Source: Halichondria panicea
Lineage: Eukaryota; Porifera; Demospongiae; Suberitida; Halichondriidae
DNA length: 64,000 nt
Assembly (NCBI RefSeq): GCF_963675165.1
Contig: NC_087393.1
Coordinates: forward strand, 302,001-366,000
Direction of reading: 5' to 3'
In this document: one piece after another, positions 2,299 through 64,000 of the stretch
Position numbering within the stretch: the first letter of the stretch is position 1
How the letters are laid out: each line of letters starts with the position of its first letter
Position numbers and translations under genes: made by a program
Notes under the pieces: model-generated
Database searches by the model: none
The model's input: only the letters and a program-made list of their open reading frames with translations
Told to the model about the DNA's origin: nothing

Positions 2299-2348
<50 letters not shown>

Positions 2349-5322: not shown

Positions 5323-13740
<8,418 letters not shown>

Positions 13741-29449: not shown

Positions 29450-32400
29450 TGGTAGACTACACATACCTTCCATTCTTCCATAAGTCCACTCATGTTGAGG
29501 TCAGCCAGTGCAGCGGCCAGTACCTGGTAGGCACTCGTCTTGCCTCCCATTGGTTCACCCACTATCATGAACCCGTGACGTACCAGCATCATCTCGTAGA
29601 TCTGCATGGGACGAACAACATGATTAATTACATATACATGTAATGGAAGCTAGTTGTTTAAAAACCACAGGCTGATAAAAATCTGGGGGTGCCCCAAGGA
29701 ATGTCATGGATGATAAGTGCCCACAAATTGGGGGCACAATGTAACATATCAAGATGGCAGCAAACCAAGCTCTCTATGGTGGCTATGAGTGTAACTGGAT
29801 TGAGGATCCCCCAGATGATCTCAAGTGTCAGATCTGTCTAATGGTGGCCAGGGAACCTAGGCAGCACGGAGACAACAAAGGATGTGGCAAGATCTTCTGC
29901 AAAACTTGTATAACACTACATCAAAGAAATAGCAAAAAATGTCCAAACTGCAGGGAGAAACTAATTCTCTTCCAAGACAAGAGAAGTATGTACTACTAAA
30001 ACATTGAATGCCATAAATAACTAGTAATTAGACTATTGTACATCGATTATTGACAATACACATGCAGTTGCTGCCAACACACTATACCATTACACTACTG
30101 TAGGTGTTCAACATATCAATGCTCTAAGAGTGAAGTGTGAAAATCTGGAGAATGGCTGCAGATGGGTGGGAGAATTTGCCGATCTAAGGACGCGTCTAAA
30201 CACGTGCGATTACGCTCTACTGCCTTGTGACAACAAATGTACAAACAACGGCCAGGCTGTAAAAGTTTTAAGAAAGAATCTGCCAGACCACCTTATGAAC
30301 CATTGCCCGAGACGTCTGTACAAGTGTCCACACTGCGAGGAAATGGGGGAACACCACGAGAGGACAAGTACACACCTCGAAATATGCCCACAAGTTAGTA
30401 TACCCTGCCCCACTAGCATTTCCTGTACAGCTGCTATTCCACGCTGTGAACGCCACATCCATAGAGCTACATGCCAGTATGAGCGCGTGCCCTGCAAGTA
30501 CGCTGAGGTTGGGTGTAGAGTGAACCCTCAACGCAAAGACCTCAAGGAACACGAAGAAAACGATCAGATTCACCTGAAGGTGACTACTGCCAAAGTTCTC
30601 GAGTTAACACAGCAACTAACTGACCAAAAGGAAATGCTAGATGAAATATGGTTAATAACCATGGAGAGTAAGCCACAAATAACATTTAGAATGGGTTGTT
30701 TTGAGGCGCACAAGAATGACAAAACTGTGATTTTCAGTAGTCCTCACTTCTACACATCTCACAGAGGATACCAATTTCGAATTCGAGTCTATCCAGGTGG
30801 TAATGGTCGCGGAGAAGGCACTCACATTTCCATCTTTGTTTGCCTAATGAAAGGAGACTACGACAATGCTCTCACGTGGCCATTTCTAGGAGAAGCCACC
30901 TTCGAGCTGCTTAATCAGATCGAGGACAAAAACCATCACAAAGCGACTACAAAATTCCTTAACAATGCGTCAAGTCAGAGAGTGGAAGGTGAAGACGAGC
31001 GTGCATTGGGAAAAGCAAAGTTCATTGCATACAGAGACCTCGAGTACAATCCGGCCAAGAATTGCCAGTACTTGAAATATGATGCTCTAATCTTTCGAGT
31101 TTCAGTGCGACCACCAAGCTACAAGTGGTTACAGTGTACCCACGCATGAGTGACACAAAACAATGAAATTGCGTAACGTTCTTAAAGGTATTAGCTGTTA
31201 TACATGTACTATATAATATGTTGTTGGTTTAATTCTTGCTGTTAAATGTACGCTTAGCCTATGAATTTTTGACATGTATCAGCTAACATGGACCACATGC
31301 AAACATGAAGTGTGCATGAACAGTGGACTATCAGATCAGCATGCAGGAGGAGAGTATCAGTAATATATGCAAGACACAGCCCGGCTCTAACCTATAATTA
31401 TTAATATACAGCTCCCAGAAGCAACAGCAGAGCTACAACAAAACTGGCAATTAGATCTGCTATTACACATTCAATTCATGCACTAGCACTGTGGAATGAA
31501 TGTCTTTCAGTACTGTTTAAACTGTGAGCTGGCTCAGATTACAAGCTGGCTCAGGTTACAAGCTGACTGGACAGGATATTTATGATTACTTTTTCATTTT
31601 TTATTAGTCCTGATGATTTACGACATTCGTAATGAAAAACTTTGACTCGTTAAAAAGTTTAAAATAAGCGTGGGCGTATTAGAGCGCGTGGCTGTACGCA
31701 TTGGTTAAAGCCATTGCGGTCACAGCTCAGTGAGTTCCGTCTACTCTTACTCATTCGTAGTACTCGTAATCTATTTGATTTACGTCATAGAAGTAACACA
31801 AGTACATATAATAAATTATACAGATGATCTCGTAGATCTGTGGTACAAACATCATGCGTTGTCAAGCTACTTTCAAAATGAAAATGTAGATGATCACCAT
31901 GCAATTGAATCATAGTAGAAGAACAAAACTTGTTGACAGACATGCTGTCTCCATTATGATACTAGGGTGGTCCCAGGTAAGATCCCAGGTAAGATCCCAG
32001 CACAGTATTTGATCTAGCTAGCACCATAGATAAATCTATGCTAGTACCTGTGAAGAAAAATTGTAGGTACAAACAAGCGTAAAAAAATGTTTGAAAAAAT
32101 AATGGTGAGAAGTAGGGTTGCATGTTGGATGAGCCGCTGGCAAAGGGATGTGAACAAGATGGGTAACCCTAATAGGAACGCCCATTAGAATAGACACAAA
32201 ACGTCACTACTTAAAATATTGTACGTGGTTTCCCAGGACCACTTATTAACGCATGCATGCAGTGAAAAAAGTTTACAAACAAGTGCAAAAAACATTTTGT
32301 GAAAAAATGGGGAAGAGTAGGGTTGGAAGAGCATGTGCACTGAAGTAACAAAAAGTTCGAAAACAAGATTAATTGTGGGTTGGTATAGTCTTGCATGCTC

Positions 32401-45283: not shown

Positions 45284-46639
45284 TCTTGAATTCTTTGCAG
45301 TGTAGGGACTCTTTTACTGCATCTCTATCCTGGACCCTCGGCTTGATGATTATCAGATAAACATAGCCGTAGGCATTTATCACCATAGCAACTTTTTAGC
45401 ATCTTTGTTAGAGCTGCAGCCACGTGGCAGAAAAGGGGGGCGTATCTCCTCTGCCATGTGGACCCATAGGTATGGAAGAATGAAAGGTATAGCTATGTAC
45501 CTCTGGCTATGTACTGTGCATTGCAACAAAAATCAGCTATACATGTGGTTTTATCTTTCAGGCATTTGGCAGCTGGAGTTTGGAGGAGCTCTCAACAGGA
45601 AACCACACAAGGACAGCTTGGAATGGAAGGATCCTAGCTTTGTGCTCTGGGAGAACCCAGTCCCCCAGGTGTGTTAACCTGCACCAATGAGTTGGCATTA
45701 GTGATGACATGGGACTCCCAATGTGTTTGTATGTATAACTATTATCCCATGAGATCTGCTAGTTGCAGACTTCATGCAAAGTGTTCGTATGTATAGTCTA
45801 ATTATTAAAATTTTTCGTCTTTTCTTCTCACATTTTCATATGGCGGATCATCATGGCTGGTGTGTGTAGCGCTCATCCTGTCACATGACTGTGTGTAGGT
45901 GTGTCCTGATCATCTCTATTAAATAAGGTATATGTTAACTATAAGCTTGTAAGCTATGTACATGACGTGTACAAATATAGACCCTTATAATTATTAACTA
46001 CCGTATCGTTGCATAAAATTAATTTGATAGCCGAGTAAATAGGAGAAACTTGTACATACATAGCTGGTTTTCCCATGCATCTATTCTTGACCAGCAGCCA
46101 TGCAGTATCCGTATATATACTGGTATAGACTGGCCATGCACTCCCTACATCTCAGTACTGCCCGTGTTAAGTTGACCTAGTGTGTACATGTACTTACAGT
46201 ACACGTATGTACTACTAATAACTGTTGCTGTATTAATTGCATGCTTGAGAGACTATAATGACGACCAAACAAAGATTATAATTGTTGATAGGACATATTC
46301 TTAAGTTAACCAGTAAAATTGTTAATTACAAAAAACAGTAAAATTATCCAAAAATGTGTAGAATAAGCAGTAGAATGATCGCAAAAATATTTCTCATTAT
46401 ATCCAACTTGAGAGCATATGTTACGGCCACATAGGTTCATATCCATCTTCTGCCTCTGGTAAACTAGTAGCTCCATTCTCCACCAAATTCCCGTAAGTCG
46501 TATCACCATCCCTCTCCTCCGCATTGCTGTAACCACTGTTCATGGTATCTACTTGTGCATATTCGAGGTCAGGGATGTTAATGCTTTCATATAATTATGT
46601 TGGGTGGATTTAAAGTTGTAATCGTAATTAGCTCGTATG
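45284..46639. other. Region between the dynein 5' end and receptor copy A
   Basis: It holds the dynein promoter side, a GC-richer exon-like patch at 45560-45670 of unknown meaning, a block at about 45840-46240 repeated near 57590-58140, and at 46430-46640 a duplicate of part of the copy A tail exon. No complete gene was recognised. Confidence 0.5.
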
Positions 46640-46640
46640 C
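46430..46640 (-). pseudogene. Duplicated fragment of the copy A cytoplasmic-tail exon
   Basis: About 235 bp repeats the sequence of 46665-46900 (tail from SEPTAI to GYEPMWP), with a few-base insertion near 46590. It lies downstream of the stop that the duplication junction itself creates for copy A, so it is not translated in the main reading. Confidence 0.75.
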
Positions 46641-48547
46641 TATTGCCGTAGGTTCTGAGTAGACGGCCACATAGGTTCATATCCATCCTCTGCCTCTGGT
46701 AAACTAGTAGCTCCATTCTCCACCAAATTCCCGTTAGTCGTATCATCATCCCTCTCCTCCGCATTGCTGTAACCACTGTTCATGGTATCTACTTGTGCAT
46801 ATTCGAGGTCGGGGATGTTAATGCTTTCATATATGTTGGGTGGATTTAAAGTTGTAATCGTAATTGGCTCGTAGACTATTGCCGTAGGTTCTGAGTAGAC
46901 TTCACTTATGTTTTCTAGGGTATTGGGAGACCGGATCCCTCTGTTTGGATAAGAAAAGGAGTTCATTACAAGCTATATACTATAGGCGGTGATCATTTAA
47001 ATCTTACTCTGAATTTGTCTTATTTTCAGCAATCTGCACAGTACTGGATCCTGGCGTAGCCTCAGTCCTGTTGATAGATAATGCATTAGTTAATTACTCC
47101 TCAACCCATTCAGTGTTAAATAAAGATATTTGAACAGCCATAACTTTAGTTTCGTTGGTCCAATAATGTCTATTCTGAAAGCTTAGACAGAGATCAAGTC
47201 TATTTTTGGCCTGTTTTTGACAAAATACCAGGTTCTATAAAATTATGGTCTTTTTCCAAAAATGGAAAATCAGTTGGGCATATCATCTCAAAGAGCTCCT
47301 TCTAAATTTTCAGAAATTAATACGATTGTACCATGCAACGAAAGTAAAGTTATGGCTGTTCAAAGATGTTTTTTATTTAACCCTGCATGCATGCATATAG
47401 GTCAATTGAATTACCTGATATTTCTCTCCTTTTTCCTTTTAACTAGTAGGCACACAACTAGTATGATGATAGTAACATTTAAGATCACAAGTACGAAGGT
47501 AGCTCCACCCACTGCCGCTCCCACAATGGCTCCTGTGTTCCCAGCACTGACTGGCATTGCTACTGACATAGCATCCTCAATTTGTTGGGGAGAGGTTGTT
47601 GATATAATTTGTGTGGTATCTGTGGTAGCAGTTGTATGTTTGTGTGTGTGTACCGAGAATAATTATATATTAATCAAATTAATGTATAGGAGATTGAAAG
47701 TCCTTGCATTAAACAGAGATTTAAGAGTTTTGTTCATTTGCGATGTCACTGTCTAGCTGCCCTCTGTGTATTATTATGGATATAATTATGCTAAAATAAT
47801 GGCTTACCTAGAAATAGGACACAGCCAAGTGCCTCCATATCCAAACAAGGCTCTGCTCCACTATGAACCACACTGACAATCCTCAATACTCGAGTGGTGA
47901 GGGGGGTGGGTAGGACTGTCGTGCTGACATCGGGAGAGTCTGGTCTAGTGAAGACCATCGGGTCAGTGGAATTAGCTTGGAGAATGCTGCTCAACTGGTC
48001 ACTGTTAGGACCATGCTCTATTGTGAACTGATTGAGATAGAACTGGTATAGTCCTCCATCTCCTCCTATCTGTAGCTCTTGAATTATGACATCTGCTTTG
48101 AAATCAACTTGAATCCAGCTTCCCGTATTATTATTTTTTGCACACCACGATTTTCCCCCCAGCCTAGCTTCGTGGGGAAGGTAGTCTTCAGAAAAGCTTG
48201 AACTGGCCGTGAACTGTTCATCCTCCACTCTGTACCTCCCACCAGTAATGAGTGGCTCTCGACATGCTGTATGCATGGGGGGGGGGGGGGTAAATGAGAT
48301 AGCCTTGTGCTTTCTACACATGCATGTGCATGTATCATAAAAGTGACATGTACATGGCTAAGTACATGCAAGCGAAATATAATAATTATTGTACTGTATA
48401 ATAGTTAGCTACGTATTATATGGTGAACATTGGACGTGCAGAACTGTGGTAGCTTTCTAGCTCTCACTCACCATTATTTCCTTGGCATAGGACTTGAGAT
48501 GTTTGTAGTATACACACTAACATCACCCAAACAGCTGTGGAATTCAT
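46640..48547 (-). CDS. Discoidin-domain transmembrane receptor-like protein, copy A
   Basis: Exons 48547-48472 (signal peptide, MNSTAVWVMLVCILQTS), 48266-47808 (F5/8 type C domain), 47619-47415 (Thr-rich stem plus transmembrane segment), 47067-47008 (linker) and 46940-46640 (tail). Phases close to 366 residues. The discoidin domain shows HEARLGG.SWCA, WIQVDF, LRIVSVV and the terminal ALGC typical of the family. The tail has EVYSEP, VYEPI, LEYAQV, SGYSNA and GYEPM. TTNGNL replaces TTYGNL, losing one tyrosine. After GYEPMWP the frame runs into a tail duplication and ends STQNLRQ instead of the usual W-stop. Discoidin domains bind glycans, lipids or proteins at the cell surface. No enzymatic domain is present. 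Ligand and role are unknown. Confidence 0.85.
47103..47395. repeat. Hairpin repeat in intron 3 of copy A
   Basis: Member of the AAGCTT hairpin family, with CATAACTTTAGTTTCGTTGG and its inverse near 47345. The same intron position is occupied in copies B-E. Confidence 0.8.
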
Positions 48548-49236
48548 GCTTGCAGCTTCTTACATTTGAGTAGATAATAGGCTCAAGCTTATGTTCCTTA
48601 AATTAAAGGCTAAATTGTTGATTCAAACAGAACCCATTATATAATCATCGTCTGTATGTCTGCGTGCATTGTTCCTTAAATTAAGGCTTAATTGTTGATG
48701 CAAACAGAACCCATTATGTAATCATTGTCTGTCAGTATGTCTGCATGCATGTCTGCACATGCAATTAGGTCATGGCTATTAAATTAGTGTGCTCAGTGTA
48801 CGTATGTGGGCGACATTGTGGCCATTGACGTAGTTACTAGGTGTATGCTGTTAATGCTTGCATGCATCACTTTATTGCAGTCTCGTAGAAAAAGAATTGA
48901 GTTTTATTACTGACAAATTTTGTTGAATAATTAAGATATCTCGTTGCTACGTTGTTGCCAAGTGCAATATATATATATGCAGCATGATGCCTGCTGAAAG
49001 TCATAATGCACTATAACCACAAAGTCATAATGCACTAACCACAGAACGCCCCTCTGGCATTAGACAGACAAATTAAATTAAATATCATGAGAAATAACAA
49101 TTAAGTATCAAAGTAAGTCCAGCCATGCAGGAATGTTCAGCACTGCTGGAGTTTCTTCTATGCAGGTTTTAAAATTGCCCAAGGTTCATGTTGTGTGTTC
49201 CTCGACCTAGTCCTCATGATGCATGTCAATTCTGCT
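48548..49236. promoter_or_regulatory. Upstream region of copy A with conserved block (class 1)
   Basis: A roughly 110-bp block at about 48778-48888 (with GTGGGCGACATTGTGGCCAT and TGCATCACTTTATTGCAG) recurs about 230 bp upstream of copies B (51701-51828) and C (54173-54290). Its conservation at a fixed distance suggests promoter sequence, or simply recent duplication. An imperfect ~80-bp tandem repeat lies at about 48595-48735. Confidence 0.5.
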
Positions 49237-49629
49237 TTACCATAGCACTAGAAGCGGCTCTTTTTGCTGGGGGCTGAGCTGTTTTGCAGCGGTGTAGAGG
49301 CGAGTTTCTTTGGCTTGATGTGAGGCCGAGGGTGGGGCTGTTTTCTGGTTTATTCTCTTTGTTCTAGCATAAGCATCATGCTCCCATAGGGCTGCGTTAT
49401 AGACTATTTTCTCTGTGCCATCTTGAGAGGTCTCTATATCGTGTTTACTGTCCATACTTTGTTGACTGCTCTCACTGGATGTCACGGGTTGGTCATTGCT
49501 AGGCAACACAACCTTTATAGACGTGTTCACATTAGCGTATGTGTACAATAGGGGGCTACCAACACTTTTGTATGGCGTGCTTGAAGCTCTAACATTTGAA
49601 CTCCCAATAGTTTCGTACATATTGGCCAT
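49237..49629 (-). CDS. Possible second cytoplasmic-tail exon of copy B
   Basis: An intact 130-codon frame 120 bp downstream of the copy B stop, preceded by an AG (CTATATAG). It carries tyrosines in MYETIGS, LLYTYANV, IVYNAAL and DAYART and has no domain match I recognise. Degraded relatives lie downstream of copies D, E and F at comparable positions. It could be an alternative terminal exon, joined from the conserved GTGAAG donor-like site inside the first tail exon, or a remnant of an older longer tail. No signal peptide or own promoter is evident. Confidence 0.5.
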   Translation of the reverse strand: MANMYETIGSSNVRASSTPYKSVGSPLLYTYANVNTSIKVVLPSNDQPVTSSESSQQSMDSKHDIETSQDGTEKIVYNAALWEHDAYARTKRINQKTAPPSASHQAKETRLYTAAKQLSPQQKEPLLVLW

Positions 49630-49747
49630 GTCTATATAGCCTTGGTATAATTATTAAGCAGAGAATGCATGGTTAGTTAAACAATAACTGAAAAAATAAT
49701 TATAAGCAGTAGAATGTTTCTCATTATGTCCAACTTGAGAGCACATG

Positions 49748-51554
49748 TCACATCCACATAGGTTCGTATCCATCCTCTGCCTCTGGTAAACTAGTAGCTC
49801 CATTCTCCACCAAATTCCCGTAAGTCGTATCATCATCCCTCTCCTCCGCATTGCTGTAGCCACTGTTCATGGTATCTACTTGTGCATATTCGAGGTTGGG
49901 GGTGTTAATGCTTTCATACGTGGTGGGTGGATTTAAAGTTGTAATCGTAATTGGCTCGTAGGCTATTGCCGTAGGTTCTGAAACTTCACCCATGTTTTCT
50001 AGGGTATTGGGAGACCGGGTTTCTCTGTTTGGATAAGAGAACGGAGTTCATTACAAGCTAGGCAGTGATTATAATTATATACTCTTACTCTGAATTTGTA
50101 TCATTTTTGGCAATCTGCACAGTATTGGATCCTGTCATGGCCTCAGTTCTGTTGATAATTAAGCGTTAATTCTGAAAGCTTAGAGAAAGGCCTTTCAGAT
50201 GTGTTAAAATCAAAAGTCTGTTTTTGGCCTGTTTTGAGAAAATACCATGGGCATATATAATTCCCATGCAGCGTAGACTTTTTCCAAAAATGGAAAATTA
50301 TGGCCTGGGCATATTATCTGAAAGAGCTCCTTCTAAGCTCGTAAAATTAATGTGATTGTACCAACATAACTAAGTTATATATGACCGTTCAAATATACTT
50401 TTTATTTAACCCTGCATATTATATAGATCAATTGATTAAGAATTACCTGATATTTCTCTCCTTATTCCTTTTAACTAGTAGGCACACAACTAGTATGATG
50501 AAAATGACATTTAAGATCACAAGTACGAAGGTAGCTCCACCCACTGCCCCTCCCACAATAGCTCCTGACATAGCATCCTCTGTTTGTTGGGGGAGGTTTG
50601 TTGATATATTTTGTGTGGTATCTGTGGTAGCAGTTATATATGTGTGTGTGTGTGTGTACTGAGACTATATATATATAGTGTGCATAATTAGTATATATAG
50701 AGGATTCCAGTTATTAAACTATAGGTAGTCTATATTCTAGATTTAAGAGCTTTTTTCATTTGCGATGTCACGGTGTAGCTACCCTCTGTGTATATAATTA
50801 TGGATATATATAGTATCTTACTTGGAGCTAGGACACAGCCGATTGCCTCCATGTCCAGACAAGGTTCTGTTCCAGAATGAACCACACTGACAATCCTCAA
50901 TACTCGGGTGGTGAGGGGGGTGGGTAGGACTGTGATGCTGGCATCGGGGGAGTCTGGTCTAGTGAAGACCATCGGGTCAGTGGAATTAGCTTGGAGAATG
51001 CTGCTCAACTGGTCACTGTTAGGACCATGCTCTAGTATGTACTGATTGACGTAGAATACAGTATTTCCTCCATTTCCTCCTATCAGTAACTCTTGAATTA
51101 TGACATCTGCTCCAAAATCCACTTGAATCCAGTTTTCCGTATCACTACTTTCTGCACACCATGAAGTTCCCCCCAGCCTAGCCTCGTGGGGAAGGTAGTG
51201 TTCAGAGAAGCTTGAACTGGCCGTAAACTGTTCATCCTCCACTCTGTATCTCCCACCAATAAGGAGGAGCTCTCGACATGCTGTATATATATGGAAGGGG
51301 GGGGGGATAAATTAGATAGCCGTATGCTTTCTACACATGTGCATGTATCATAGAAATGACATGTACACGGCTAAGTTCTGTATACATGCAAGCGAAATGT
51401 AATAATTGTTGTACTGTATATAGCTAGCTACGTATGGTGAACATTGGACATGCAGAACTGTGTTAGCTTTCTCTCACTCACCATTTCCCTGGCATAGGAC
51501 TTGAGATGTTTGTAGTATACACACTAACATCACCCAAACAGCTGTGAAAGTCAT
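49748..51554 (-). CDS. Discoidin-domain transmembrane receptor-like protein, copy B
   Basis: Exons 51554-51482, 51280-50822, 50621-50447, 50148-50089 and 50024-49748. Every junction keeps phase and the product is 347 residues. The signal peptide is MTFTAVWVMLVCILQTS. A discoidin domain of about 150 residues ends DMEAIGC. The transmembrane segment runs through GGAVGGATFVLVILNVIFII and VVCLLV, then KR as stop-transfer. The linker is RTEAMTGSNTVQIAKNDTNS. The tail has YEPI, LEYAQV, SGYSNA, TTYGNLV and GYEPM before the stop. YEPM fits the YxxM consensus for PI3K-type SH2 domains; LEYAQV and TTYGNL fit ITIM/ITSM-like patterns. These readings follow consensus motifs only. This is the cleanest copy and serves as the template for the array. 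Confidence 0.88.
50160..50410. repeat. Hairpin repeat in intron 3 of copy B
   Basis: Same family and same intron position as in copy A, with CTGAAAGCTTAGAGAAAGGC and an eroded inverse end. Confidence 0.75.
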
Positions 51555-52196
51555 CCTTGCAGCTTCTTACATAATTTTAGTAGATAATAGGCTCAAGCTT
51601 TATGACCCTTAAATTATAAAGCTTATTGTTGTATGCAAACAGAACCCATTATGTAATCGTTGTCTGCATGCATGTCTGCACGTGTAAATTAGGTCATGGC
51701 TATTAAATTAGTGTGCTAAGTGTACGTATTATGTGGGCGACACTGTGGCCATTGCCATAGTTACCCGGTGTATGCTAGCTGTTGATGCTTGCATGCATCA
51801 CTTTATTGCAGTCTCGTAAAGTAACAAAATTGAGTTTATCACTGACAAATTACGGCTAAATAATTAAGAGATGATTATGATAATTATGATATTATGCATA
51901 ATTATGATGATAGTATATAAAACAAAGTGATCTGTAACATAATTAGCTATTCCTACACCACGCCAGTTACATAGTTGATGTACACTACATAATCGTACAC
52001 TATACATAATCGTAATTGTTGATAGGACGCTATTATTATTTTATGCTAAAGTAAAATTCCTGAGTATATTATACTTATTAAGCATGCAGTTAGAATGCAT
52101 GGTTAGTTAAATAACAACTGAATAAAATGGTAGAATATAGTAAGTAGAATGATTATAAATATTTGTCATTATGTCCAACTTGAGAACATAATTATG
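51555..52196. promoter_or_regulatory. Upstream region of copy B with conserved class 1 block
   Basis: The conserved block lies at about 51701-51828. The remainder up to copy C is AT-rich without recognised genes. No second-tail exon is seen 3' of copy C. Confidence 0.45.
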
Positions 52197-54013
52197 TCAC
52201 AACCACATAGATTCGTATCCATCCTCTGTCTCCGATAAACTAGTAGCTCCATTCTCCACCAAATTCCCGTAAGTATCATCATAAGTCGTATCATCATCCC
52301 TCTCCTCCGCATTGCTGTAGCCACTGTTCATGGCATCTACTTGTACATATTCGAGGTCAGGGATCGTAATGCTTTCATACGTGGTGGGTGGATTTAAGGT
52401 TGTAATTATAATTGGCTCGTAGGCTATTGCCGTAGGTTCTGTGTAGACTTCACTCATGTTTTCTAGGGTATTGGGATCCCGGGTTTCTCTGTTTGGATAA
52501 AAGAAGAAGTTCAGTATATACAAGCTAGGTGGTGATCATTTAATCTTACTCTGAATTTGTCTCATTTTCAGCAATCTGCACAGTACTGGATCCTGCCGTA
52601 GCCTCTGTCCTATTGAAATAACGTTAATTTGCTTATAGAGAGAAGCCTTTCAGATGTGTTAAAATCATGTGTCTATTTTTGGCTTGTTTTTGACAAATAC
52701 CATGACCATAATTATAGCGCAGGATATTTTTTCCAAAAATGGAAAATTATGACCTGGGCATATCATCTAAAAGAGACCTTTAGAAAATGATAAGTGATTG
52801 TACCAACGTAACTAAAGTTATGGCCTTAAATGTACTATTAATGCTGCATGGGTCGATTGATTAGAATTACCTGATATTTCTCCTCTTAACTAGTAGGCAC
52901 ACAACTAGTATGATGAAAGTGACATTTAAGATCACAAATACGAAGGTAGCTCCACCCATTGCCCCTCCCACAATAGCTCCTGTGTTCCCGGCACTGACTG
53001 GCATTGTTGTTGTCATAGCATCCTCAGTTTGTTGGGGAGGGGTTGTTGATATAGTTTTTGTAGTATCTGTGGTAGCAGTTATATATGTTGATAAGTATGT
53101 ATGTATATGTACTGAGAATAGTGTGCATATTATAGTTAGTGTATATAGAGGATTGAAGGTATCCCATACAGTCATTAAAACACAGGTATTTTAGATTTAA
53201 GTTCATTTGCGGTGTCACGGTCTAGCTGCATGCCCTCTGTGTGTATGATATGGATATGCATGGATGGGCTTACTTGGACAGCCAATTGCCTCCATGTCCA
53301 AACAAGGCCCAGATCCAGTATGGACCACACTGACAATCCTCAATACTCGAGTGGTGAGGGGGGTGGATAGGACTGTGGTCCTGACATCGGGAGAGTCTGG
53401 TCTACTGAAGACCTTTGGTTGGTTGGAATTAGGTTGAAGAATACTGCTCAACTGGTCACTGTTAGGACCATACTCTATTCTGAATAGATTGACGTAGAAC
53501 TGGGCTGCTCCTCCATCCCCTCCTATCAGTAACTCTTGAATTATGACATCTGTTCCAAAATCTACTTGAATCCAGTTTTCCGTATCACTACTTTCTGCAC
53601 ACCACGAGTTTCCTCCCAGTCTAGCCTCGTGGGGAAGATAGTCTTCAGAGAAGCTTGAACTGGCTGTGAACTGTTCATCCTCCACTCTGTACTTCCCACC
53701 AAGAATGAGGTGCTCTCGACATGCTGTATGGGGGGGGGGGGGATAAATTAGATAGCCTTGTGCTTTTTAAATATGTGCATGCATGCATGTATCATAGAAA
53801 TGACATGTATATACATACATGGGCTGTACATATATTATATACATGCCTGCAAGGAAATGTAATAATTATTGTACTGTATAATATAGTTAGCTGTGGTGAA
53901 CATTGGACATGCAGAATTGTGTTAGCTTTCTCTCACTCACCATTTCCCCGGCATAGGACTTGAGATGTTTGTAGTATACACACTAACATCACCCAAACAG
54001 CTGTGAAAGACAT
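52197..54013 (-). CDS. Discoidin-domain transmembrane receptor-like protein, copy C
   Basis: Exons 54013-53941, 53723-53274, 53066-52871, 52609-52550 and 52488-52197. Phases close to 356 residues. The discoidin exon is 9 bases shorter at its 3' end than in A and B (ends AIGCP, lacking VLxx). The stem is Thr/Pro-rich (TTPPQQTEDAMTTTMPVSAG) and the transmembrane exon ends KRRNIR, lacking the NKE of other copies. The tail has VYTEP, AYEPI, LEYVQV, a duplicated TYDD before TYGNLV, and GYESM, again a YxxM ending. All lesions tested (stops, phase) are absent, so it looks functional. Confidence 0.87.
52620..52850. repeat. Hairpin repeat in intron 3 of copy C
   Basis: A shortened family member between the linker and transmembrane exons, recognised by GTGTCTATTTTTGGC, CAAAAATGGAAAATTATGAC and ACTAAAGTTATGGCC. 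Confidence 0.7.
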
Positions 54014-54480
54014 CCTTGTAGCTTCTTACATAATTTGAGTACATGTATAGAATAGCTCAAGCTTTATTTAAGGCTTGATTGTTGTATGCAAACAGAAGCC
54101 ATTATGTGATCATTGTCTGCATGTCTGCGTGCATGTGTGCCTGAATGTCTGCATGTGCAATTATAGGCCATAGCTATTAAATTAGTGTGCTATGTGTACT
54201 AAGTGTGTGTGGGCGACATTGTGGCCATTGCCATAGTTACCCGGTGTATTCTGTTAATGCTTGCATGTATTACTTTATTGCTGTCTCGTAGAGTAAAAGA
54301 ATTGAGTTTATTACTGACAAATAAAATTATGCTGAACAATTAAGAGATGATAATTATGCATACTTATGGTGATATTGATCTTTAGCTATTCCTACACCAC
54401 GCCAGTTACATAATTGATGTACACTACATAATCGTACATTACACGACACAATGCATAGAACCATACAACGGATTATCCAT
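54014..54480. promoter_or_regulatory. Upstream region of copy C with conserved class 1 block
   Basis: The block at about 54173-54290 matches those upstream of copies A and B. No gene is seen. Confidence 0.45.
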
Positions 54481-54800
54481 AAGCTCATTTCCTGGTTTAC
54501 TCTCTTTGTTCTAGCATAAGCATCATGCTCTCATAATTATAGGCTGCGTTAGTAACTGTCTTCTCTGTGTCATCTTGAAAGGCCTCTATATAGTCTTTAC
54601 TGTCCATACTTTATTGACTGCTCTCACTGACTGTCATGGATTGGCTATTGCTAGGCAACACGACCTTTATAGGCATGTCCACTTTAGCGTATGGTACAAT
54701 GGGGGCTACCAACACTTTCGTATGATGTGCTTGAAGCTCTAAACGCGTTGGGACTCCCAATATTTCAAGTATAATTATGACTAGCACCGATCTGCTAGTT
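54481..54800 (-). pseudogene. Degraded second-tail exon downstream of copy D
   Basis: It aligns with the 49237-49629 frame (IKVVLPSNSQS and SESSQ), but the frame ends at TAA where copy B has CAA, and later parts are frameshifted. The change creates AATAAA, which might act as a polyadenylation signal. Confidence 0.6.
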
Positions 54801-55074
54801 TGAGGCGTCATGGGAGAATTGTTTTGTATGTAGAATTATATGCTCAATTTTTCCGTCTCTACTTCTATAGGTTTTCATACTAACAGTATATGTACTAATA
54901 TAACTTTGTTGTATAAATTGCAGTTTGAGAGACTATAATAATGACCAAACAAAGATTGTTGATAAGACTATGAGATTTAATTTGCAGTAGAATTGTTAGT
55001 CAAATAACAGCCCAAAAAATTGTAGAAGAGGCATTAATTATTATATCCAACTTGAGAGCACATGTAATGCACAA

Positions 55075-56863
55075 TCACACAAGTTCGTATTCATTCTCTG
55101 CCTCTGGTAGACTAGTAGCTCCATTCTCCACCAATCTTCCATAAGCATTGTTCTGAGTCATATCACCATCCCTCTCCTCCGTGTTGCTATAGCCACCTTT
55201 CGTGGTGTCTACTTGTGCATACTCCAGGTCGGAGATGTTAATGCTTTCATACGTATTGGATCGGTTTAAAGTTGTCATCGTAATTGGCTTGTAGGCTATT
55301 GCCATAGGTTCTGAGTAGACTTCACCCATGTTTTCTAGGGTATTGGGAGATCGGGTTTCTCTGTTTGGATAAGAGAAGGAGTTCAGTACAAGCTAGGCGG
55401 TGATTATTTAATCTTACTCTGAACATTTTTTCTCAGTGCTGGATCCTGGCGTAGCCTCAGTCCTGTTGATAATTAAATAACGTTCATTCTGAAAGCTTAG
55501 AGAAAGGCCTTTCAGATGTATTAAAATCAAAAAGTTTTTGACAAATACCATGAGCTAAGCCCATTCAAAAATGGGATTGTGCAATTTAAGATTTTCAGTA
55601 ATACCATCTTAATAACGAGCTCCTTCTAAGTTTTCAGACAATTATATGATTGGACAAACGGAACTAAAATTATCAAAGATCAAAGATGCTTTATTTAACG
55701 CTACATGGGTCGATTGCATGGTCAATTACCTGATATTTCTCCTTTTAACTTGTAGGCACACAACTAGTATGATGATAGTGATAAGTAAGATCACAAGTAC
55801 GAAGGTGGCTCCACCCACTGACCCTCCCACAATGGCTCCTGTGTTCCCAGCACTGACTAGCATTGTTGTTGTCATAGCATCATCTGTTTCTGTTTCGTTT
55901 GTTGGTGTAGTTTGTGTGGTATCTGTGGTATGTGTGTGTGTGCCAAGACAAGAATGGTGTGCATATTAGAAAGACTTTCAATTGTTAAAACACAGATTTA
56001 AGAGCTTTTTTCATTTGCGGTATCACAGTCTAGCTGCCCTCTGTGTATATAATGATAATGGATATATAATTATAGCTATAATTATAGCTATAATTATGCT
56101 AAATGGCTTACCTGGAGATTGGACACAGCCAATTGCCTCTAGGTACAGACAAGGGTCTGATCCAGAATGGACCACACTGACAATCCTCAATACTCGAGTG
56201 GTGAGAGGGGTGGGTAGGACTGTCGTGCTGACACTGGGAGAGTTTAGTCTAGTGAAGACCATTGGTTGGTTGGAATTAGCTTGGAGAATGCTGTTCAACT
56301 GGTCACTGTTAGGACCATGCTCTATTGTGAACTGATTGATGTAGAAGCCTCCTCTATCTCCTCCTATCTGTAACTCTTGAATTATGACATATGTTTTGAA
56401 ATCGACTTGAATCCAGGCACCACTACCCAAGCCTGCTTGTGCGCACCACGAATTCCCCTCCAGCCTAGCCTCGTGGGGAAGGTAGTTTTCAGAGAAGCTT
56501 GAACTGGCCGTAAACTGTTCATCCTCCACTCTGTACATCTCACCAGTAATGAGGGCCTGGGGCTCTTGGCATGCTGTATGGGGGAGGGAGTATAGGTAGC
56601 CTGTGCTTTTTACAAATGTGAGAGATATTATATGTACTTGGTTATTATAGTTCTGTGCATGGAACCCTAAAATGAGATGTATTGATTGTACTAGTAAAAT
56701 TATAACTTGATAAGTCACTGCATGTGTAGTACGTTATACGCATGGTGAACATTGGACATGCAAGAATTGTGTTAGCTTTCACTCACTCACCATTTCCCTG
56801 GCATAGGACTTGAGATGTTTGTAGTATACACACTAACATCACCCAAACAGCTTTGGACGTCAT
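55075..56863 (-). CDS. Discoidin-domain transmembrane receptor-like protein, copy D
   Basis: Exons 56863-56791, 56573-56112, 55922-55730, 55462-55418 and 55360-55075; product 352 residues in closed phase. The discoidin domain has LGSGAWIQVDF. The linker exon is 15 bases shorter (deletion of five codons) yet stays in frame. The tail has VYSEP, AYKPI, LEYAQV, GGYSNT, NAYGRLV and ends EYELV-stop. The YxxM ending of copies A-C is therefore replaced by YELV. Its 5' flank belongs to the second upstream class shared with E and F. Confidence 0.86.
55485..55700. repeat. Hairpin repeat in intron 3 of copy D
   Basis: A partly deleted family member with CTGAAAGCTTAGAGAAAGGC and the inverse end GGACAAACGGAACTAAAATT. 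Confidence 0.7.
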
Positions 56864-57140
56864 CCTTGCAGCTTAGTAGCTAGTATTTCCCAAATGAATT
56901 CTTATGTTGCCTTGTTGCAGATTAAGAGCTATGCAAAGGGCATGCAATGTGATCCCTTCCAGTGTATGTTTGAACTAGCATGCATGAAATTGTAATTAGT
57001 ACTGCGTGGTATGTATGTATGTGTGGTAATATGAACTGGCAGAAGTTGCTTGATATAATTGATCCACACTACATACAACGCTACGTAATCATACTTGCAT
57101 ATAGTACCATACAACGGATTGGCTTTTATAACTATTTTGG
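56864..57140. promoter_or_regulatory. Upstream region of copy D (class 2)
   Basis: It starts about 20 bp upstream of the ATG with TTTCCCAAATGAATTCTTAT and continues to ATCCCTTCCAG. The same sequence precedes copy E (61027-61170) and copy F (63654-63790) but not A-C. Confidence 0.5.
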
Positions 57141-57490
57141 TTCACTTTTTATTCTAGCATAAGCAGCATTCTCCATCAAGCTCCCATAGGCCGTATTAAT
57201 AACTCTTCTCTGTGCCATCTTGAAAGGCGTCCATGTCTGGTTCAATCTTGGTTCCATCATGCTACTATATATTGTGTTAACAACTGTCTTCTCTATGTAC
57301 ACATTAAAATTTATATTTCATATTTTGTTGTCTGCTTTCTGTCATGGGTTGGCCATTGCTAGGCAACACGACCTTTCTAGGCGTGTCCATTTTAGCGTAT
57401 GTGTACAATAGGGGGCTACCAACACTTTCGTATGGTGTGCTTGAAGCTTTAACGTTGGGACTCCCAATGGTTTCGTATACGTATGTCTAT
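57141..57490 (-). pseudogene. Degraded second-tail exon downstream of copy E
   Basis: It shows similarity to the copy B second-tail exon (GTGTTGCCTAGCAATGGCCA and the block with TACACATACGCTAAAATGGA on the minus strand), with rearranged segments and no continuous frame. Confidence 0.55.
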
Positions 57491-57732
57491 CATATAGATC
57501 TGCTAGTTGGAGACTTTAGGGGAATTGTTTCGTATGTATATGATCAAATTTTCCGGGCCATCTTTACTTCTCAGGCTTTCATGTGACGCATCAGTGAGTA
57601 TCATGGCTGGTGTGTGTAGCGTTCGTATCCTGTCACATGGCTGCTTGGAGGTGTGTCCTGATCATCCCTATTAAATTTAAGGTATATATTGTTAACTAAG
57701 CTTGGGTAAAATATATTAAGCTATATAGGTAC

Positions 57733-57892
57733 CGTATAGCGGGTATATTTCGAAACTTTCGCGGATTTAATTTTCGTGGAATAGCAGTATGCATGCATGC
57801 GATATTAAATTCGTGGGTATAAATGTTCGCGGTACATGCTTAATCAGCGAAAACCGCGAACATTTATACCCTCGAAATATACACGCTATACG
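57733..57892. mobile_element. MITE-like element with CGTATAGCG(G/T)GTATATTTCG ends
   Basis: A 20-bp terminal inverted repeat with one mismatch. Inside is a second inverted pair (GGGTATAAATGTTCGCGG and its complement), giving a nearly complete hairpin of about 160 bp. No coding capacity. Confidence 0.8.
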
Positions 57893-58147
57893 CCATAACG
57901 GTACATGACATATATGTATATACATGTACAAATATGGACCTTTATATTTTAACTACCGTATATCGTTCCTATTAATTTGATAGCCGAGTGAAACAGATTA
58001 ATGTATAGAAACTTGGTTGCCCATGCATCTATTCTTGACCAGCAGCCAGTATCCGTATCTACTATAGTAGACTGGCCACTCCCCACATAATTTATGTAGT
58101 GTCCGTGTTAGGTTGACTTAGTGTGAACAAAATGTATAGATTGTGTA

Positions 58148-58321
58148 TACCGTATAGCGCAAAATTTTCGAGGGGCTTAATTTTCACTGCTTTTGTGGGT
58201 TAGCAATCCTACATGAAAATTAAGTCCACCGACGAAAATAGTTCTTTAATTAGAATTATCTGCTATAACGTGCAAAGAGTACACGAACAGTGTGCTCTCA
58301 AAAATTTCGCGCTATACGGTA
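58148..58321. mobile_element. MITE-like element with TACCGTATAGCGCGAAATTT-type ends
   Basis: Inverted ends of about 25 bp (TACCGTATAGCGCAAAATTT and the inverse of CTCAAAAATTTCGCGCTATA). It is related to the element at 57733 by its CGTATAGCG terminus. A TA duplication is possible but not distinguishable from the terminal TA. Confidence 0.78.
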
Positions 58322-58579
58322 TGTACATATATATAATTATATATATATATTATACTGCTGGTTTTGTGATTTTACTTGATAACTTATTGCTGCATTAATA
58401 TCTTAAACTTAAGACACGAATGACGACCAAACAATATTGTTAATGAACACGATATGAATTTATGCTGAAGTAAAATTCCCATTTTAACTGAGCAGCATAT
58501 TTAAAATGGTTGTTAAACAATTATAAAATAGCCGCCTGAGTAGAAGTACTTCTCATTATGTCCAACTTGAGAGCACATG

Positions 58580-60993
58580 TCACAACCACACAAGTTCGTA
58601 TCCATCCTCTGTCTCTGGTAAACTAGTAGCTCCATTCTCCACCAATTTCCCAAAAGCAATGTACTGAGTCATATCACCATCCCTCTCCTCCACATTGTTT
58701 ATGGTATTTGCTTGTGTATACATGTTGGGTGGATTTAAAGTTGTAATTGCAATTGGCTCATAGGCTATTGCCGTAGGTTCTGAGTAGACTTCACCCATGT
58801 TTTCTAGGGTATTGGGTGCCCGGGTCTCTCTGTTTGGATATGAGAAGGAGTTCAGTACAAGCTAGGCAGTGATCATTTAATCTTACTCTGAATTTGTCTC
58901 ATTTTCAGCAATCTGCACAGTATTGGATCCAGTCGTGGCCTCTGTCCTATTGATAATCATACATAATCATTGTTTTAATTACTCCTCGACCCATGCAGCG
59001 TTAAATAAAGCACCTTTGAATGGCTAGTTTCGTTTGTCCAATGACATTGATTTTCTGATTTTCTGAAAGCTTATAAGGAGCTCTTTCCGATGGATATACG
59101 TATTAAAACTTTTGGCCTGTTTTTAACAAAATACTCATGGTCTTTTCCCGAAAATGGACCTGTTCCAAATTTAAGATTTGAGCATACCATGATGGCATCT
59201 GAAAGAGCTCCTTTTAAAATCAAAACTAACATTAATGTGATTAGACCATCAGAACTAAAGTTGTAGCCGTTCAAAGATGCTTTATTAATGCTTCATGTAT
59301 TAATTACCTGATATTTCTCCCCTTATTCCTTTTAACTAGTAGGCACACTAGTATAATGATAGTGACATTTAAGATCACAAGTACGAAGGTAGCTCCACCC
59401 ACTGACCCTCCCACAATAGCTCCTGTGTTCCCAGTCATAGTGTCATCCGTTCGTTGGGGGAAGTTTGTTGATGTAATTTGTGTGGTATCTGTGGTGGTAG
59501 CATCTGTATGTGTGTGTGTGTACTGAGAATAGTGTGCATATTAGTCAGTAAAAAAATCTCCCAGTTATTAAAATACAGATTTAAGAGAATTTGTGGTGTC
59601 ACGGTGTATGCCCTCTGTGTATATATAATGATGCTAAATAGCTTACCTAGAGGTAGGACACAGCCGATTGCCTCCAGGTCCAAGCAAAGTACTGCTCCTC
59701 CAAAGAATGCCACACCTACAATCCTCAATATTTGAGTGGTGAGGGGGTTGGGTAGGACTGTCGTGCTGACACTGGGAGAGTCTGGTCTAGTAAAGACCAT
59801 TGGTTGGAAGGAATTAGGTTGGAGAATGCTGCTCAACTGGTCACTGTTAGGACCATACTCTATTGTAAACTGAGTGAGGTAGTACTGGAATTCTCCTCCA
59901 TCTCCCTCTATCTGTAGCTCTTGAATTATGATATTTTCTCTGAAATCGACTTGAATCCAAGCGCCAATACCCAAACCTTCTTGTGCACACCATTCCATTC
60001 CCCCCAGCCTAGCCTTGTGAGGGGGATAGTCTTCAGAGAAGATTGAACTGGCTGTGATCTGTTCATCCTCCACTCTGTACTTCTCACCAGTAATAAGAGG
60101 CTCTCGACATACTGTATGTAGGGGGGGGGGGGGGGGGGGGTAAAGTAGATAGCTTTGTGCTTATAGGCATTTTAGATTAAGGGCTTTTTTCATTCGTGAT
60201 GTCACGATCTATAGCTGCCCTCTGTGTATAATGATAATGGTATATGCTAAATAGCTTACCTGGAGGTAGGACACAGCCGATTGCCTCCAGGTCCAAACAA
60301 AGCACTGCTCCTCCAAAGAATGCCACACCTACAATCCTCAATATTCGAGTGGTGAGGGGGTTGGGTAGGACTGTGGTGCTGACATCGGGAGAGTCTGGTC
60401 TAGTGAAGACCATCGGGTCAGTGGAATTAGGTTGGAGAATGCTGCTCAACTGGTCACTGTTAGGACCATACTCTATTGTAAACTGAGTGAGGTAGTACTG
60501 GAATTCTCCTCCATCTCCCTCTATCTGTAGCTCTTGAATTATGACATTTTCTCTGAAATCGACTTGAATCCAAGCGCCAATACCCAAACCTTCTTGTGCA
60601 CACCATTCCATTCCCCCCAGCCTAGCCTTGTGAGGGGGGTAGTCTTCAGAGAAGATTGAACTGGCTGTGATCTGTTCATCCTCCACTCTGTACTTCTCAC
60701 CAGTAATAAGAGGCTCTCGACAAACTATATGTGGGGGGGGGGTAAAGTATACAGAGACGTACCTGGTTACGTAATCCTACAGTGAAATTATTTATTATAC
60801 TAAGTTGATAAAAGTAGTTGTTATAATTATAGTAATTTTTTAACATGCTGTTATACTGTAGATACATATAGATTTGGTAAACATTGGACATAAGAACTGT
60901 GATAGCTTTCTCTCACTCACCATTTCCCTGACATAGGACTTGAGATGTTTGTAGTATACACACTAACATCACCCAAACAGCTGTGGACGTCAT
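58580..60993 (-). CDS. Discoidin-domain transmembrane receptor-like protein, copy E, with two discoidin exons
   Basis: Exons 60993-60921 (signal), 60724-60260 (discoidin 1), 60111-59647 (discoidin 2), 59488-59308 (transmembrane), 58946-58887 (linker) and 58829-58580 (tail). Both discoidin exons are 465 bases and symmetric phase 1, so using both gives 497 residues and using either one gives 342. They differ at only about six residues. Both lack the usual GG loop sequence of A-C and share VAFFGGAVLCLDLEAIGC. The tail is reduced: the block containing LEYAQV is deleted, AYGxL is changed to AFGKL (tyrosine lost), and the end is GYELVWL. The acceptor of discoidin 1 is TAG after a C run. Whether both exons are spliced together or alternatively cannot be told from DNA. 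Confidence 0.8.
58985..59290. repeat. Hairpin repeat in intron 3 of copy E
   Basis: Family member with GATTTTCTGAAAGCTTATAA and the inverse end CATCAGAACTAAAGTTGTAG, at the same intron position as in A-D. Confidence 0.75.
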
Positions 60994-61320
60994 CCTTGCA
61001 TGCAGCTTCACAGTTTGAGTAGATAATATTTCCCAAATGAATACTTATGGGTGCCTTGTTGCATCAGATTAAGAACATGCAGAGGCCATATGTGATCCCT
61101 TCCAGCATATTTGTGCCTAGTTTGTTGGTGGTCATCCCACGATTCAACCAAATATTGTGATAAGTGCTGGTATACGTATGTACACTCATACATGCACTGT
61201 TTAAATGCATGCACTGGCAGAACGTATTAAAATTGCTTGATGTTCAAATTGATACCCCACATAATGCGTATACACTAACATACGTAATCATACTTGCATA
61301 GTGCCATACAATGGATTGTC
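60994..61320. promoter_or_regulatory. Upstream region of copy E (class 2)
   Basis: It carries the class 2 block (TTTCCCAAATGAATACTTAT, then ATCCCTTCCAGCATATTTGT). No gene was seen. Confidence 0.45.
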
Positions 61321-61329
61321 AATCAGTTC

Positions 61330-61800
61330 TTTTCCAACATTCTCTGGTTCACTTTTTGTTCCAGCATAAGCAGCATTCTCCATCAAGCTCCCATATAGGC
61401 CGTGTTAATAACTGTCTTCTTCTCTGTGCCATCTTGAAAGGCCTCCATGTCTGCTTCAATCTTTGTTCCATCAGCTAAGCTACCATAGGCTGTGTTAATA
61501 ACTGTCTTCTCTGTGCCATCTTGAAAGGCCTCCATGTCTGGTTCAATCTTGGTTCCATCAGTTAAGCTCCCGTAGGCTGTGTCAATAACTATCTTCTCTA
61601 TGTCATCTTGAGAGGTCTCTATATCGTCTTTACTGTCCATACTTTATTGACTGCTCTCACTGAATGTTATGGGTTGGCCATTGCTAGGCAACACGACCTT
61701 TATAGGCATGTCCACTTTAGCGTATGCGTACAATAGGGGTCTACCAACACTTTTGTATATGATGTGCTTAAAGCTTTAACGTTTGAACTACCAATGATTT
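61330..61800 (-). pseudogene. Second-tail region downstream of copy F with repeated TAYGSL motifs
   Basis: Resembles the copy B second-tail exon but is interrupted by TAA at the SSQQ position. Downstream, a 75-84 bp unit is tandemly repeated (minus-strand ORF 61640-61383), encoding INTAYGSLADGTKIEADMEA-type units with AFQDGTEK. Each unit carries TAYGSL, an ITIM-like TxYxxL. Whether any of it is translated is unknown. Confidence 0.55.
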
Positions 61801-62032
61801 TGTATATGAGTTTTGTATGTATATATATGCTCCATGCATCCTCTATACCTCAGGCTTTCATACTAACAGTACATGTATTAATAACTTTTCTGCAAGCTTG
61901 AAATATATATTAACGACCAAAAAAAAAAATAGTTGATAGGACTATGACATAATATCTTTAGTCAAAAAATTGTAGAATGATTATATAATTATCTCGTTAT
62001 GTTCAACTTGAGAGCACATGTCACAATCACAA

Positions 62033-63598
62033 TCACACAAGTTCGTATCCATCTTCTGTCTCTGGTAGATTAGTAGCTCCATTCTCCACTAATCTTTCAT
62101 AAGCTACGTTCTGAGTTATGTCACCATCCCTCTCCTCCGCATTGCCATAGCCACCTTTCATGGTACCTACTTGTACATATTCAAGGTCAGGGATCTCATA
62201 CGTGTTGGGTGGATTTAAAGTTGTAATTGCAATTGGCTCGTAGACTATTTCCGTAGGTTCTGAGTAAACTTCACCCATGTTTTCTAGGGTATTGGGAGAC
62301 CAGGTCTCTCTGTTTGGATAAGAGAAGGAGTTCATTACAAGCTAGGCGGTGATCATTTAATCTTACTCTGAATTTGTCTCATTTTCGGCAATCTCCACAG
62401 TATTGGATCCTGGCGTGCATGGCCTCTGTCCTATATTGATAATCCATTTCACCATTTTATTGAATACATTGAATTACCTGATATTTCTCCCCTTATTCTT
62501 TTTAACTAGTAGGCACACAACTAGTATGATGATAGTGACAAGTAAGATCACAAATACGAAGGTAGCTCCACCCACTGCCCCTCCCACAATAGCTCCTGTG
62601 TTCTCAGCACTGGCTGTCATAGCATCCTCTGTTTGTTGGGGGGCCGGGGGGGGTTGTTGATATATTTTGTGTGGTGTCTGTGGTATAGCAGTTATAATTA
62701 TGTTTGTGTGTGTGTACCGAGAATAGTGTATATATTAGTCAGTATACCAATACATACTTGCATTAATTAAAACACCGGTATTTTAGAAGAGCTCTTTTTT
62801 TTATTTGCGGTGTCACGGTCTAGCTGCCCTTTGCATGTGATATATATAATTATGCTAGACGGGCTTACCTGGAGATAGGACACAGCCGATTGCCTCCATG
62901 TCCAAACAAGGCTCGTCTCCAGAATGGACCACACTGACAATCCTCAATACTCGAGTGGTGAGGGGTGTGGGCAGGACTGTCGTGCTGACACTGGGAGAGT
63001 CTGGTCTAGTGAAGACCATTGGTTGAATGAAATTAGCTTGGAGAATGGTGCTCAACTGGCTACTGTTAGGACCATGCTCTATTGTGAACTAAGTGACGTA
63101 AAATTGACCGTTTCCTTCATCTCCCTCTATCTGTAACTCTTGAATCATGACATCTACTCCGAAATCTACTTGAATCCAGCTTCCCGTATCACCACCTCGT
63201 GCGCACCATGAGTTTCCCCCCAGCCTAGCCTCGTGGGGACGGTAATTTTGGGAGAAGCTTGAACTGGCCGTGAACTGTTCATCCTCCACTCTGTACTTCT
63301 CACCAGTAATGAGGGCCTGGGGCTCTTGGCATGCTGTATGGGGGAGGAGAGAAATTATAGCCTTATGTTTTTAGAAATGTGCATGTATCTGGCTATTGTA
63401 GTTCTAGCCTAAAGATTGTACTGTAAAATTATAACGCGATAAGTCAATAAAATATGTAGCTGCATGTATATGTATAGGTGAACATTGGACATGCAAAACT
63501 GTGATAGCTTTCTCTCACTCACCATTATTTCCTTGGTATAGGACTTGAGATGTTTGTAGTATACACACTAACATCACTCAAACAGCTGTGGAAGTCAT
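62033..63598 (-). pseudogene. Discoidin-domain receptor-like copy F, disrupted
   Basis: All five exons are recognisable: 63598-63523, 63333-62869, 62677-62478, about 62428-62363 and about 62310-62033. The discoidin exon has an in-frame TAG at 63089-63091 where other copies have CAG (glutamine of NQFTIE). The transmembrane exon is 200 bases, which breaks the phase rule met by all other copies. The change sits in a C-rich run near 62640 and leads to a stop before the membrane segment. Splice sites are intact. The hairpin repeat found in intron 3 of A-E is absent. Either lesion could be an assembly error, but two independent ones make a pseudogene likely. The tail still reads VAYERLV and GYELV. 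Confidence 0.75.
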
Positions 63599-63650
63599 CC
63601 TTGCAGCTTCTTACAGCTTCTTACAGCTTCGTACAGCTTGAGTAGGTATA
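63599..63650. repeat. 11-bp tandem repeat upstream of copy F
   Basis: CAGCTTCTTA is repeated three to four times directly before the copy F start codon. Other copies have a single unit. Confidence 0.8.
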
Positions 63651-63653
63651 GTA

Positions 63654-64000
63654 TTTCCCAAATGAATACTTATAGTGTCTTGTTGCATATAGAGTAAGAA
63701 CTATGCGAAGTCCATATGTGATCGCTTCCAGTGCATGTTTGTGTAACTAGCACTTGGTGTGCTACGGTGCTACTTAATTAAGTGTTGGTATGTACGTACG
63801 TGCATGTGCTTATATGAACTGTTAAACTGGCAGATCGTATGAACTTACTTGATATATTGACATAATTAACGCACACTATACATATACCGTTACGTAATCA
63901 TACTTGCATAGGACCATACAACAGATTGTCTTTCCCTTTGGTTCACATCCAGCATAAGCAGCATTCTCCACAATGCTCCCATATAGACTGTATTAATAAC
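63654..64000 (-). other. Class 2 upstream block of copy F and 3' edge of a further array member
   Basis: 63654-63790 is the class 2 flank. From about 63945 to the window end, sequence matches the second-tail region (CAGCATAAGCAGCATTCTCC as in copies E and F), so a seventh gene, G, probably lies beyond the window. Confidence 0.6.

Follow-up and report, generated by a model that had tools for sequence, protein, structure and literature searches.

The window analysed here is the 64,000-nucleotide stretch of the Halichondria panicea genome that spans positions 302001-366000 of contig NC_087393.1 (C17) in an assembly of 131 Mb and 39 contigs. Towards its high end lie six related genes (A-F, group I), all on the minus strand as judged by open frames and splice-aware alignment, which encode candidate receptors with a discoidin (F5/8C) ectodomain. 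Each unit consists of five exons for a signal peptide, the F5/8C domain, a threonine-rich stem with a transmembrane helix, a linker and a tail, and the exon places and intron phases (1-1-2-2) match across all six, in agreement with the layout proposed in an earlier note on this DNA. That note had counted six consecutive copies; six same-strand units are indeed present, but five are intact and F is a pseudogene, in which the signal-peptide and discoidin exons contain two in-frame stops and the reading frame is shifted at least once. Signal peptides and transmembrane helices were called by hydrophobicity, without a predictor, and the splice aligner accepts GT-AG introns only, so that the splice sites of A-F are partly given by construction; gene B was also checked by hand reading. 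The linker exon of D is shortened, and the altered C-terminus of A, ending ...YEPMWPSTQNLRQ, adjoins a partial tandem repeat of its tail exon. In gene E the discoidin exon is present twice, each time flanked by AG/GT sites, and the two are 95% identical across 300 nt. Among A-D the exons are 84-94% identical, compared with 69-77% for introns 1-3, and the short intron 4 reaches 92%. Synonymous divergence (dS) between discoidin exons is 0.18-0.38 in 27 of 28 pairs, the only closer pair being the two exons of E (0.07). Since the copies are this diverged, an assembly duplication, which the earlier note had raised as a possible artefact, is ruled out as the source of the array.

The cluster continues ~36 kb past the window end (position 64000), to ~401.6 kb of the contig. 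As a whole it comprises 18 genes and one fragment with 21 discoidin domains, all on a single strand at C17 348.6-401.6 kb, and 15 models are regarded as intact (A, B, C, D, E, G, H, VI, VII, V_387, III_401, III_391, IV_399, IV_395 and IV_393). In genes H and G a first domain of group I type, encoded by one exon, is followed by a second domain of an older type that is split by a phase-0 intron; the old-type domain alone, in a single copy, is found in VII (485 aa) and VI (504 aa) as well as in the genes of V (two), III (three) and IV (three). An iterated family profile built from the discoidin domain, run over the frames of C17:292001-454000 and of three loci on C16 and C1, matches 22 frames at 349.8-401.5 kb, which equal 21 domain copies with F split, and gives zero matches at the three C16/C1 loci. 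Whole-genome searches, scoring best candidates only, place the group I domain at 9 sites, the group I tail at 9, the IV domain at 10 and the VII domain at 6, all within the cluster; the queries did not include III, V or VI, and distant family copies may exist elsewhere in the genome. The earlier note had asked how many such loci a genome holds, and these four family queries match one cluster alone. The Pfam model F5_F8_type_C (PF00754) finds 11 places in the genome, 8 in the cluster above the cut-off and 3 outside it below the cut-off; kinship with the latter was rejected, as all score below the cut-off and their frames look unrelated (by reading, the two on C16 resemble HERC-type RCC1/ZZ genes and are nearly identical, and the one on C1 resembles a gene of lectin or glycosyltransferase type).

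The exon-phase plans are 1-0-1-2-2(-2) in genes with one old-type domain, 1-1-0-1-2-2 in H and G, and 1-1-2-2 in group I, the phases being computed for H, G, VI, VII and III_391 and read by hand for III_401 and IV_399. The models of IV_395, IV_393 and V_387 rest on the splice aligner, which suggests an extra intron in the stem of IV_393, and odd junctions of V_387 were mended by eye. The shared plan suggests that the predicted genes of the cluster go back to one ancestor. Genes B, D, E and F are each followed by a copy of the H tail exon that is truncated at the 5' end, and the copies after D, E and F contain stops, while no such relic was found behind C or G; the probable ancestor of group I is therefore an H-like gene, the old tail of which became an orphan. 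For gene B, use of the relic as an alternative last exon was rejected, the near acceptor being out of phase with the linker exon in a hand reading of B only. Two predicted proteins are mosaics and show, at the level of the gene models, tail exchange between ectodomains: in G a group I tail follows an ectodomain with two discoidin domains, and in III_391 a tail of type IV follows an ectodomain of subfamily III. The exon duplicated in E is the discoidin exon, which in group I is phase-symmetric. Through a history of duplication, loop diversification and tail exchange between ectodomains, ligand and output could have been changed separately.

PF00754 is matched by B (E 5.7e-11), III_401 (1.1e-6), IV_399 (9.5e-7) and H (1.8e-22, in two stretches), all above the curated cut-off of 28.2 bits. 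The Pfam scan of six cluster proteins yields no other family above cut-off and lists no kinase, phosphatase, CUB or LCCL domain, consistent with the statement in the earlier note that the tails are free of enzymatic domains. In the PDB, 56 distinct sequences are matched at 0.01, the best being neuropilin-1 (3e-15), followed by factor VIII, neuropilin-2, lactadherin, DDR2 and others. The domain of B shares 17-23% identity with four old-type domains. Clear DDR orthologues have been reported in sponges, according to the available part of PMC6485061; none turned up in the genome searches here (best candidates only), which may have missed discoidin genes, or the host may be without DDRs.

Variation between the discoidin domains is unevenly distributed. 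For eight sequences (A, B, C, D, both E exons, G and H; F dropped) the pooled ratio of nonsynonymous to synonymous differences (pN/pS) is 0.57 over the whole discoidin exon, so that positive selection across the whole domain is rejected; for six tails (A-E and G; F dropped) it is 0.71. When the first discoidin domain is aligned to b1 of neuropilin-1, whose pocket residues we take to mark the pocket loops L1-L4, the ratio is 0.18 in L1, 0.84 in L2, 0.81 in L3 and 1.37 in L4, exceeding 1 in the six-column L4 only. Jointly, L2-L4 have a pN/pS of 0.95, compared with 0.40 for the rest (L1 included), and their mean number of distinct residues is 2.61 versus 1.49, which is reached by 1 of 152 mask rotations, the unrotated one counted. 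Indels of the domain fall in L2, in L3 and adjoining L4, and one further indel lies close to the N-terminus. The choice of L2-L4 was made with the variable columns already known, their match to the neuropilin loops being taken from the PDB sequence alignment, and loops vary in most proteins; the pattern therefore suggests ligand diversification, without being proof of positive selection.

The tails, taken from seven subfamily representatives with 58 tyrosines in 1154 residues (linkers included), were compared with 5000 residue shuffles for nine patterns (p uncorrected, floor 0.0002). Each carries 5-12 tyrosines, many of them in docking contexts. Yxx[ILVMP] accounts for 39 of the 58 tyrosines, compared with 15.1±3.3 in the shuffles, and Y[DEST]x[ILVMP] is found 23 times (5.4 shuffled), NxxY 17 times (4.4) and N.[LI]Y 6 times (0.5), each with p 0.0002. 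YxxP occurs 11 times (3.7 shuffled, p 0.0008), in the representatives of IV, V, VI and VII and not in B, H or III. The immunoreceptor tyrosine-based switch motif (ITSM) is present 4 times (0.7 shuffled, p 0.004), and the inhibitory (ITIM) type [SIVL]xYxx[ILV] 7 times (2.5 shuffled, p 0.014), with at least one site in 5 of 7 tails. The earlier note had described the tails as immune-receptor-like on account of YEPM/YESM, LEYAQV and TTYGNL. SH2-type tyrosine contexts are present, but these motifs are not common to all seven group I tails (A-F and G): YxxM is found in three (as YEPM in A and B and as YESM in C, with D-G lacking it), LEY[A/V]QV in six (E lost it) and exact TTYGNL in gene B only. 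The description is also stronger than the data, as ITIM-type sites are modestly enriched, YxxM is not significantly so and DCBLD/CRKL-type YxxP is enriched too. With gaps set aside, the fully conserved tyrosine columns number 5 of 7 in group I (42 of 89 other columns), 7 of 8 in IV (87 of 135) and 6 of 8 in IV with V (44 of 135). A membrane-proximal linker motif (NNELYG, NDLYH or DNEIYG) is shared by subfamilies II-V, with a looser NRTLYK in VI, and is absent from group I and VII.

The cluster thus probably encodes kinase-less phosphotyrosine-scaffold receptors, that is, type I single-pass proteins of a single, tandemly expanded locus that work like DCBLD1/2. The discoidin head would bind a ligand via its pole loops, and once the receptors cluster, a Src- or Abl-type kinase would gain access to the tail. 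SH2 proteins (p85, SHP2, Crk/Nck-type adaptors) would then dock on the phosphorylated sites of YxxM, ITIM/ITSM-like, YxxP and Yxx[I/L/V] type, so that differing tail types would yield differing outputs. Likely readers of the tails are a p85-like gene (iSH2 at C4:1811396-1811725, barely above cut-off with 32.0 vs 31.5 bits; SH2 at C4:1812617-1812823) and an SHP2-like gene with the order SH2-SH2-protein tyrosine phosphatase on C3 (about 8406.2-8404.0 kb), both names resting on domain order and reading of the sequence. Tyrosine phosphatase domains are hugely expanded in this genome, with 176 matches in the best 150 of 361 candidates, most of those listed lying on C4.

Neuropilins likewise have F5/8C domains, the closest by sequence, and are single-pass and without kinase, but no CUB or MAM domain is reported in the cluster proteins scanned, and neuropilin tails are short and are not known to carry such tyrosine arrays. 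DDR1 and DDR2 likewise combine a discoidin head with tyrosine docking sites, but carry a kinase domain, none being reported in the six cluster proteins scanned. Nearest in working principle are DCBLD1/2, which are also transmembrane proteins with a discoidin ectodomain and several tyrosine motifs that recruit SH2 adaptors, and whose YxxP sites, promoted by Src-family kinases and Abl, bind the SH2 domain of CRKL (PMC6029619, in the part available). The cluster differs from them in the lack of CUB and LCCL by Pfam in the six proteins scanned, in its many tandem genes and in the mixture of ITIM-like, YxxM and YxxP sites. A receptor family of exactly this layout was not found described in searches of the open-access literature, nor is such a locus described in the available parts of PMC6485061 or PMC8260672; this agrees with the earlier note, which knew of no family with the exact layout, but DCBLD1/2 come close in working principle.

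Several observations weigh against reading the cluster as a family of scaffold receptors. Four units are broken, namely F, V_389 (transmembrane exon frameshifted), III_397 (signal peptide disturbed, one acceptor lost) and the fragment at 373-374 kb. VI and VII have no F5/8C match in Pfam, their discoidin domains being detected by the family profile only, the AlphaFold model of the discoidin domain (from an alignment of six intact window exons of five genes) has a predicted local distance difference test score (pLDDT) of 47, and the pocket loop L1 is conserved. YxxM (4 vs 1.6 shuffled, p 0.064) and YxN (6 vs 4.4, p 0.28) are not significantly enriched, and the shuffle p values are all too small because the representatives are relatives. 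Copy E has lost three tail tyrosines, and setting gaps aside hides those lost there by deletion; the linker tyrosine of group I is lost, and III_391 has cysteine in its place. The losses in E and in the group I linker, the broken F, the relics behind B, D, E and F and the tail pN/pS of 0.71 would also fit a mostly neutral expansion, in which a few old receptors (III-VII) are functional and the young group I array is decaying and of little function. We consider this improbable: A-E retain open frames and splice sites, the discoidin pN/pS of 0.40 outside L2-L4 points to constraint, and the exons of A-D are better kept than introns 1-3, though not than intron 4.

For scaffold receptors of this kind, two roles come into question. 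DDR, neuropilin and DCBLD proteins bind matrix-type ligands in development and remodelling, and the cluster proteins could conceivably be matrix or adhesion scaffolds of the same sort, binding collagen, proteoglycan or other matrix and having no immune role. Their YxxP sites resemble those of DCBLD (PMC6029619, in the part available). Among solved domains, those nearest in sequence (neuropilin-1/2 and factor VIII, followed by lactadherin and DDR2) point the same way, as does the strong conservation of L1. Known matrix receptors occur in one or few copies, however, which is exceeded by an array of 18 genes with pseudogenes, tail exchange and loop-focused divergence. A second candidate role, suggested by the earlier note and kept here as tentative, is that of innate immune or allorecognition receptors with a variable ectodomain and inhibitory as well as activating tails, by analogy with the Alr cluster of Hydractinia and the fester co-receptor (FcoR) cluster of Botryllus. 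The cluster organisation, the mixture of ITIM-like and other tails, the loop-focused variation and the presence of SHP2-like and p85-like genes in the genome are consistent with it. Alr ectodomains are immunoglobulin (Ig)-like. Alr and FcoR/fester genes are likewise clustered, with ITIM, hemITAM (half of an immunoreceptor tyrosine-based activation motif) or Yxx[I/L/V] tails, on which unrelated invertebrate allorecognition receptors converge, and the FcoR ectodomains are of Ig and sushi type (PMC12065747, in the part available). Against an immune role stand the whole-domain pN/pS of 0.57, with values above 1 in the six columns of L4 only, and the modest enrichment of ITIM-type sites; moreover, the allorecognition role and polymorphism of Alr and FcoR/fester have been studied, whereas the present cluster is known from one assembled haplotype.

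More specifically, the cluster might be an undescribed self/non-self locus of an early-branching animal, in which discoidin instead of Ig domains recognise and ITIM, YxxM and YxxP tails are shuffled to tune activating and inhibitory output, a reading that we regard as rather unlikely. If true, it would represent a further independent convergence on tyrosine-tail allorecognition signalling. The available part of a 2025 review calls the mechanisms of invertebrate allorecognition a mystery, and reports no conservation between the candidate proteins put forward for sponges, cnidarians and ascidians, the sponge case being the work on the aggregation factor (PMC12065747). As a sponge locus, the cluster would provide a set of candidate receptors that is compact, lies on a single chromosome and has readable signalling tails, so that the question could be tested by typing, expression and phospho-binding. 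Should it have no immune role, it would still constitute a multi-gene family of discoidin scaffold receptors with a layout other than that of DCBLD/neuropilin, which expanded through the duplication of exons and the exchange of tails.

Table 1. Coordinates of the genes and relics (window positions, unless C17 is given).
Feature	Position	Strand	Exons	Remarks
Gene A	46640..48547	-	48547-48472, 48266-47808, 47619-47415, 47067-47008, 46940-46640	intact
Partial second tail-exon copy behind gene A	46386..46591	-		with stop
Gene B	49748..51554	-	51554-51482, 51280-50822, 50621-50447, 50148-50089, 50024-49748	347 aa, intact
Relic X behind gene B	49240..49641	-		134-aa frame homologous to gene H tail, 5' truncated
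Gene C	52197..54013	-	54013-53941, 53723-53274, 53066-52871, 52609-52550, 52488-52197	356 aa, intact
Gene D	55075..56863	-	56863-56791, 56573-56112, 55922-55730, 55462-55418, 55360-55075	352 aa, intact
Relic X behind gene D	54489..54761	-		with stop
Gene E	58580..60993	-	60993-60921, 60724-60260, 59488-59308, 58946-58887, 58829-58580	342 aa with one discoidin exon, intact
Gene E second discoidin exon	60111-59654	-		phase-symmetric, AG/GT sites
Relic X behind gene E	57175..57480	-		with stops
Gene F	62036..63598	-		pseudogene
Relic X behind gene F	61575..61825	-		with stop
Gene G	C17 371732-366447			586 aa, two discoidin domains
Gene H	C17 377293-374711			626 aa, two discoidin domains

Two repeated elements lie in introns of the cluster. 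An element with seemingly inverted ends (gaacggccataacttta...), noticed by eye, is shared by intron 3 of the group I genes (e.g. window 59300-58990), recurs in V and VI introns and might represent a mobile element of the fold-back kind. In gene G, the long intron that separates the second discoidin domain from the transmembrane exon contains, by eye, a tandem repeat with a unit of roughly 80-90 bp (C17 ~369 kb, local about 4990-5620).

On its low side the cluster is bordered by frames of an axonemal-type dynein heavy chain, one of which is confirmed by Pfam, and on its high side by a frame that, from reading alone, resembles a nucleoside transporter. Two similar TRAF-type frames (window 30028-31149 and 34148-35230, plus strand) lie on the strand opposite to the surrounding dynein frames, the first with zf-TRAF and MATH in Pfam and the second assigned by reading. 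About 43 kb from the array, a plus-strand frame with PH and SH3 domains (Pfam) and several tyrosine sites (window 2238-3773) resembles the immune adaptors SKAP1/2. Elsewhere in the genome, the HERC-like pair (C16:1618339 and 1638511) and its neighbouring membrane-protein genes, 20 kb apart, represent a recent segmental or assembly duplication. A short COX1-like stretch at C1:5280527-5280718, the sole COX1 match in the genome, contains two in-frame TGA codons, is open only if TGA is read as tryptophan, which would suit a sponge or cnidarian without proving one, and is probably a nuclear copy of mitochondrial DNA.

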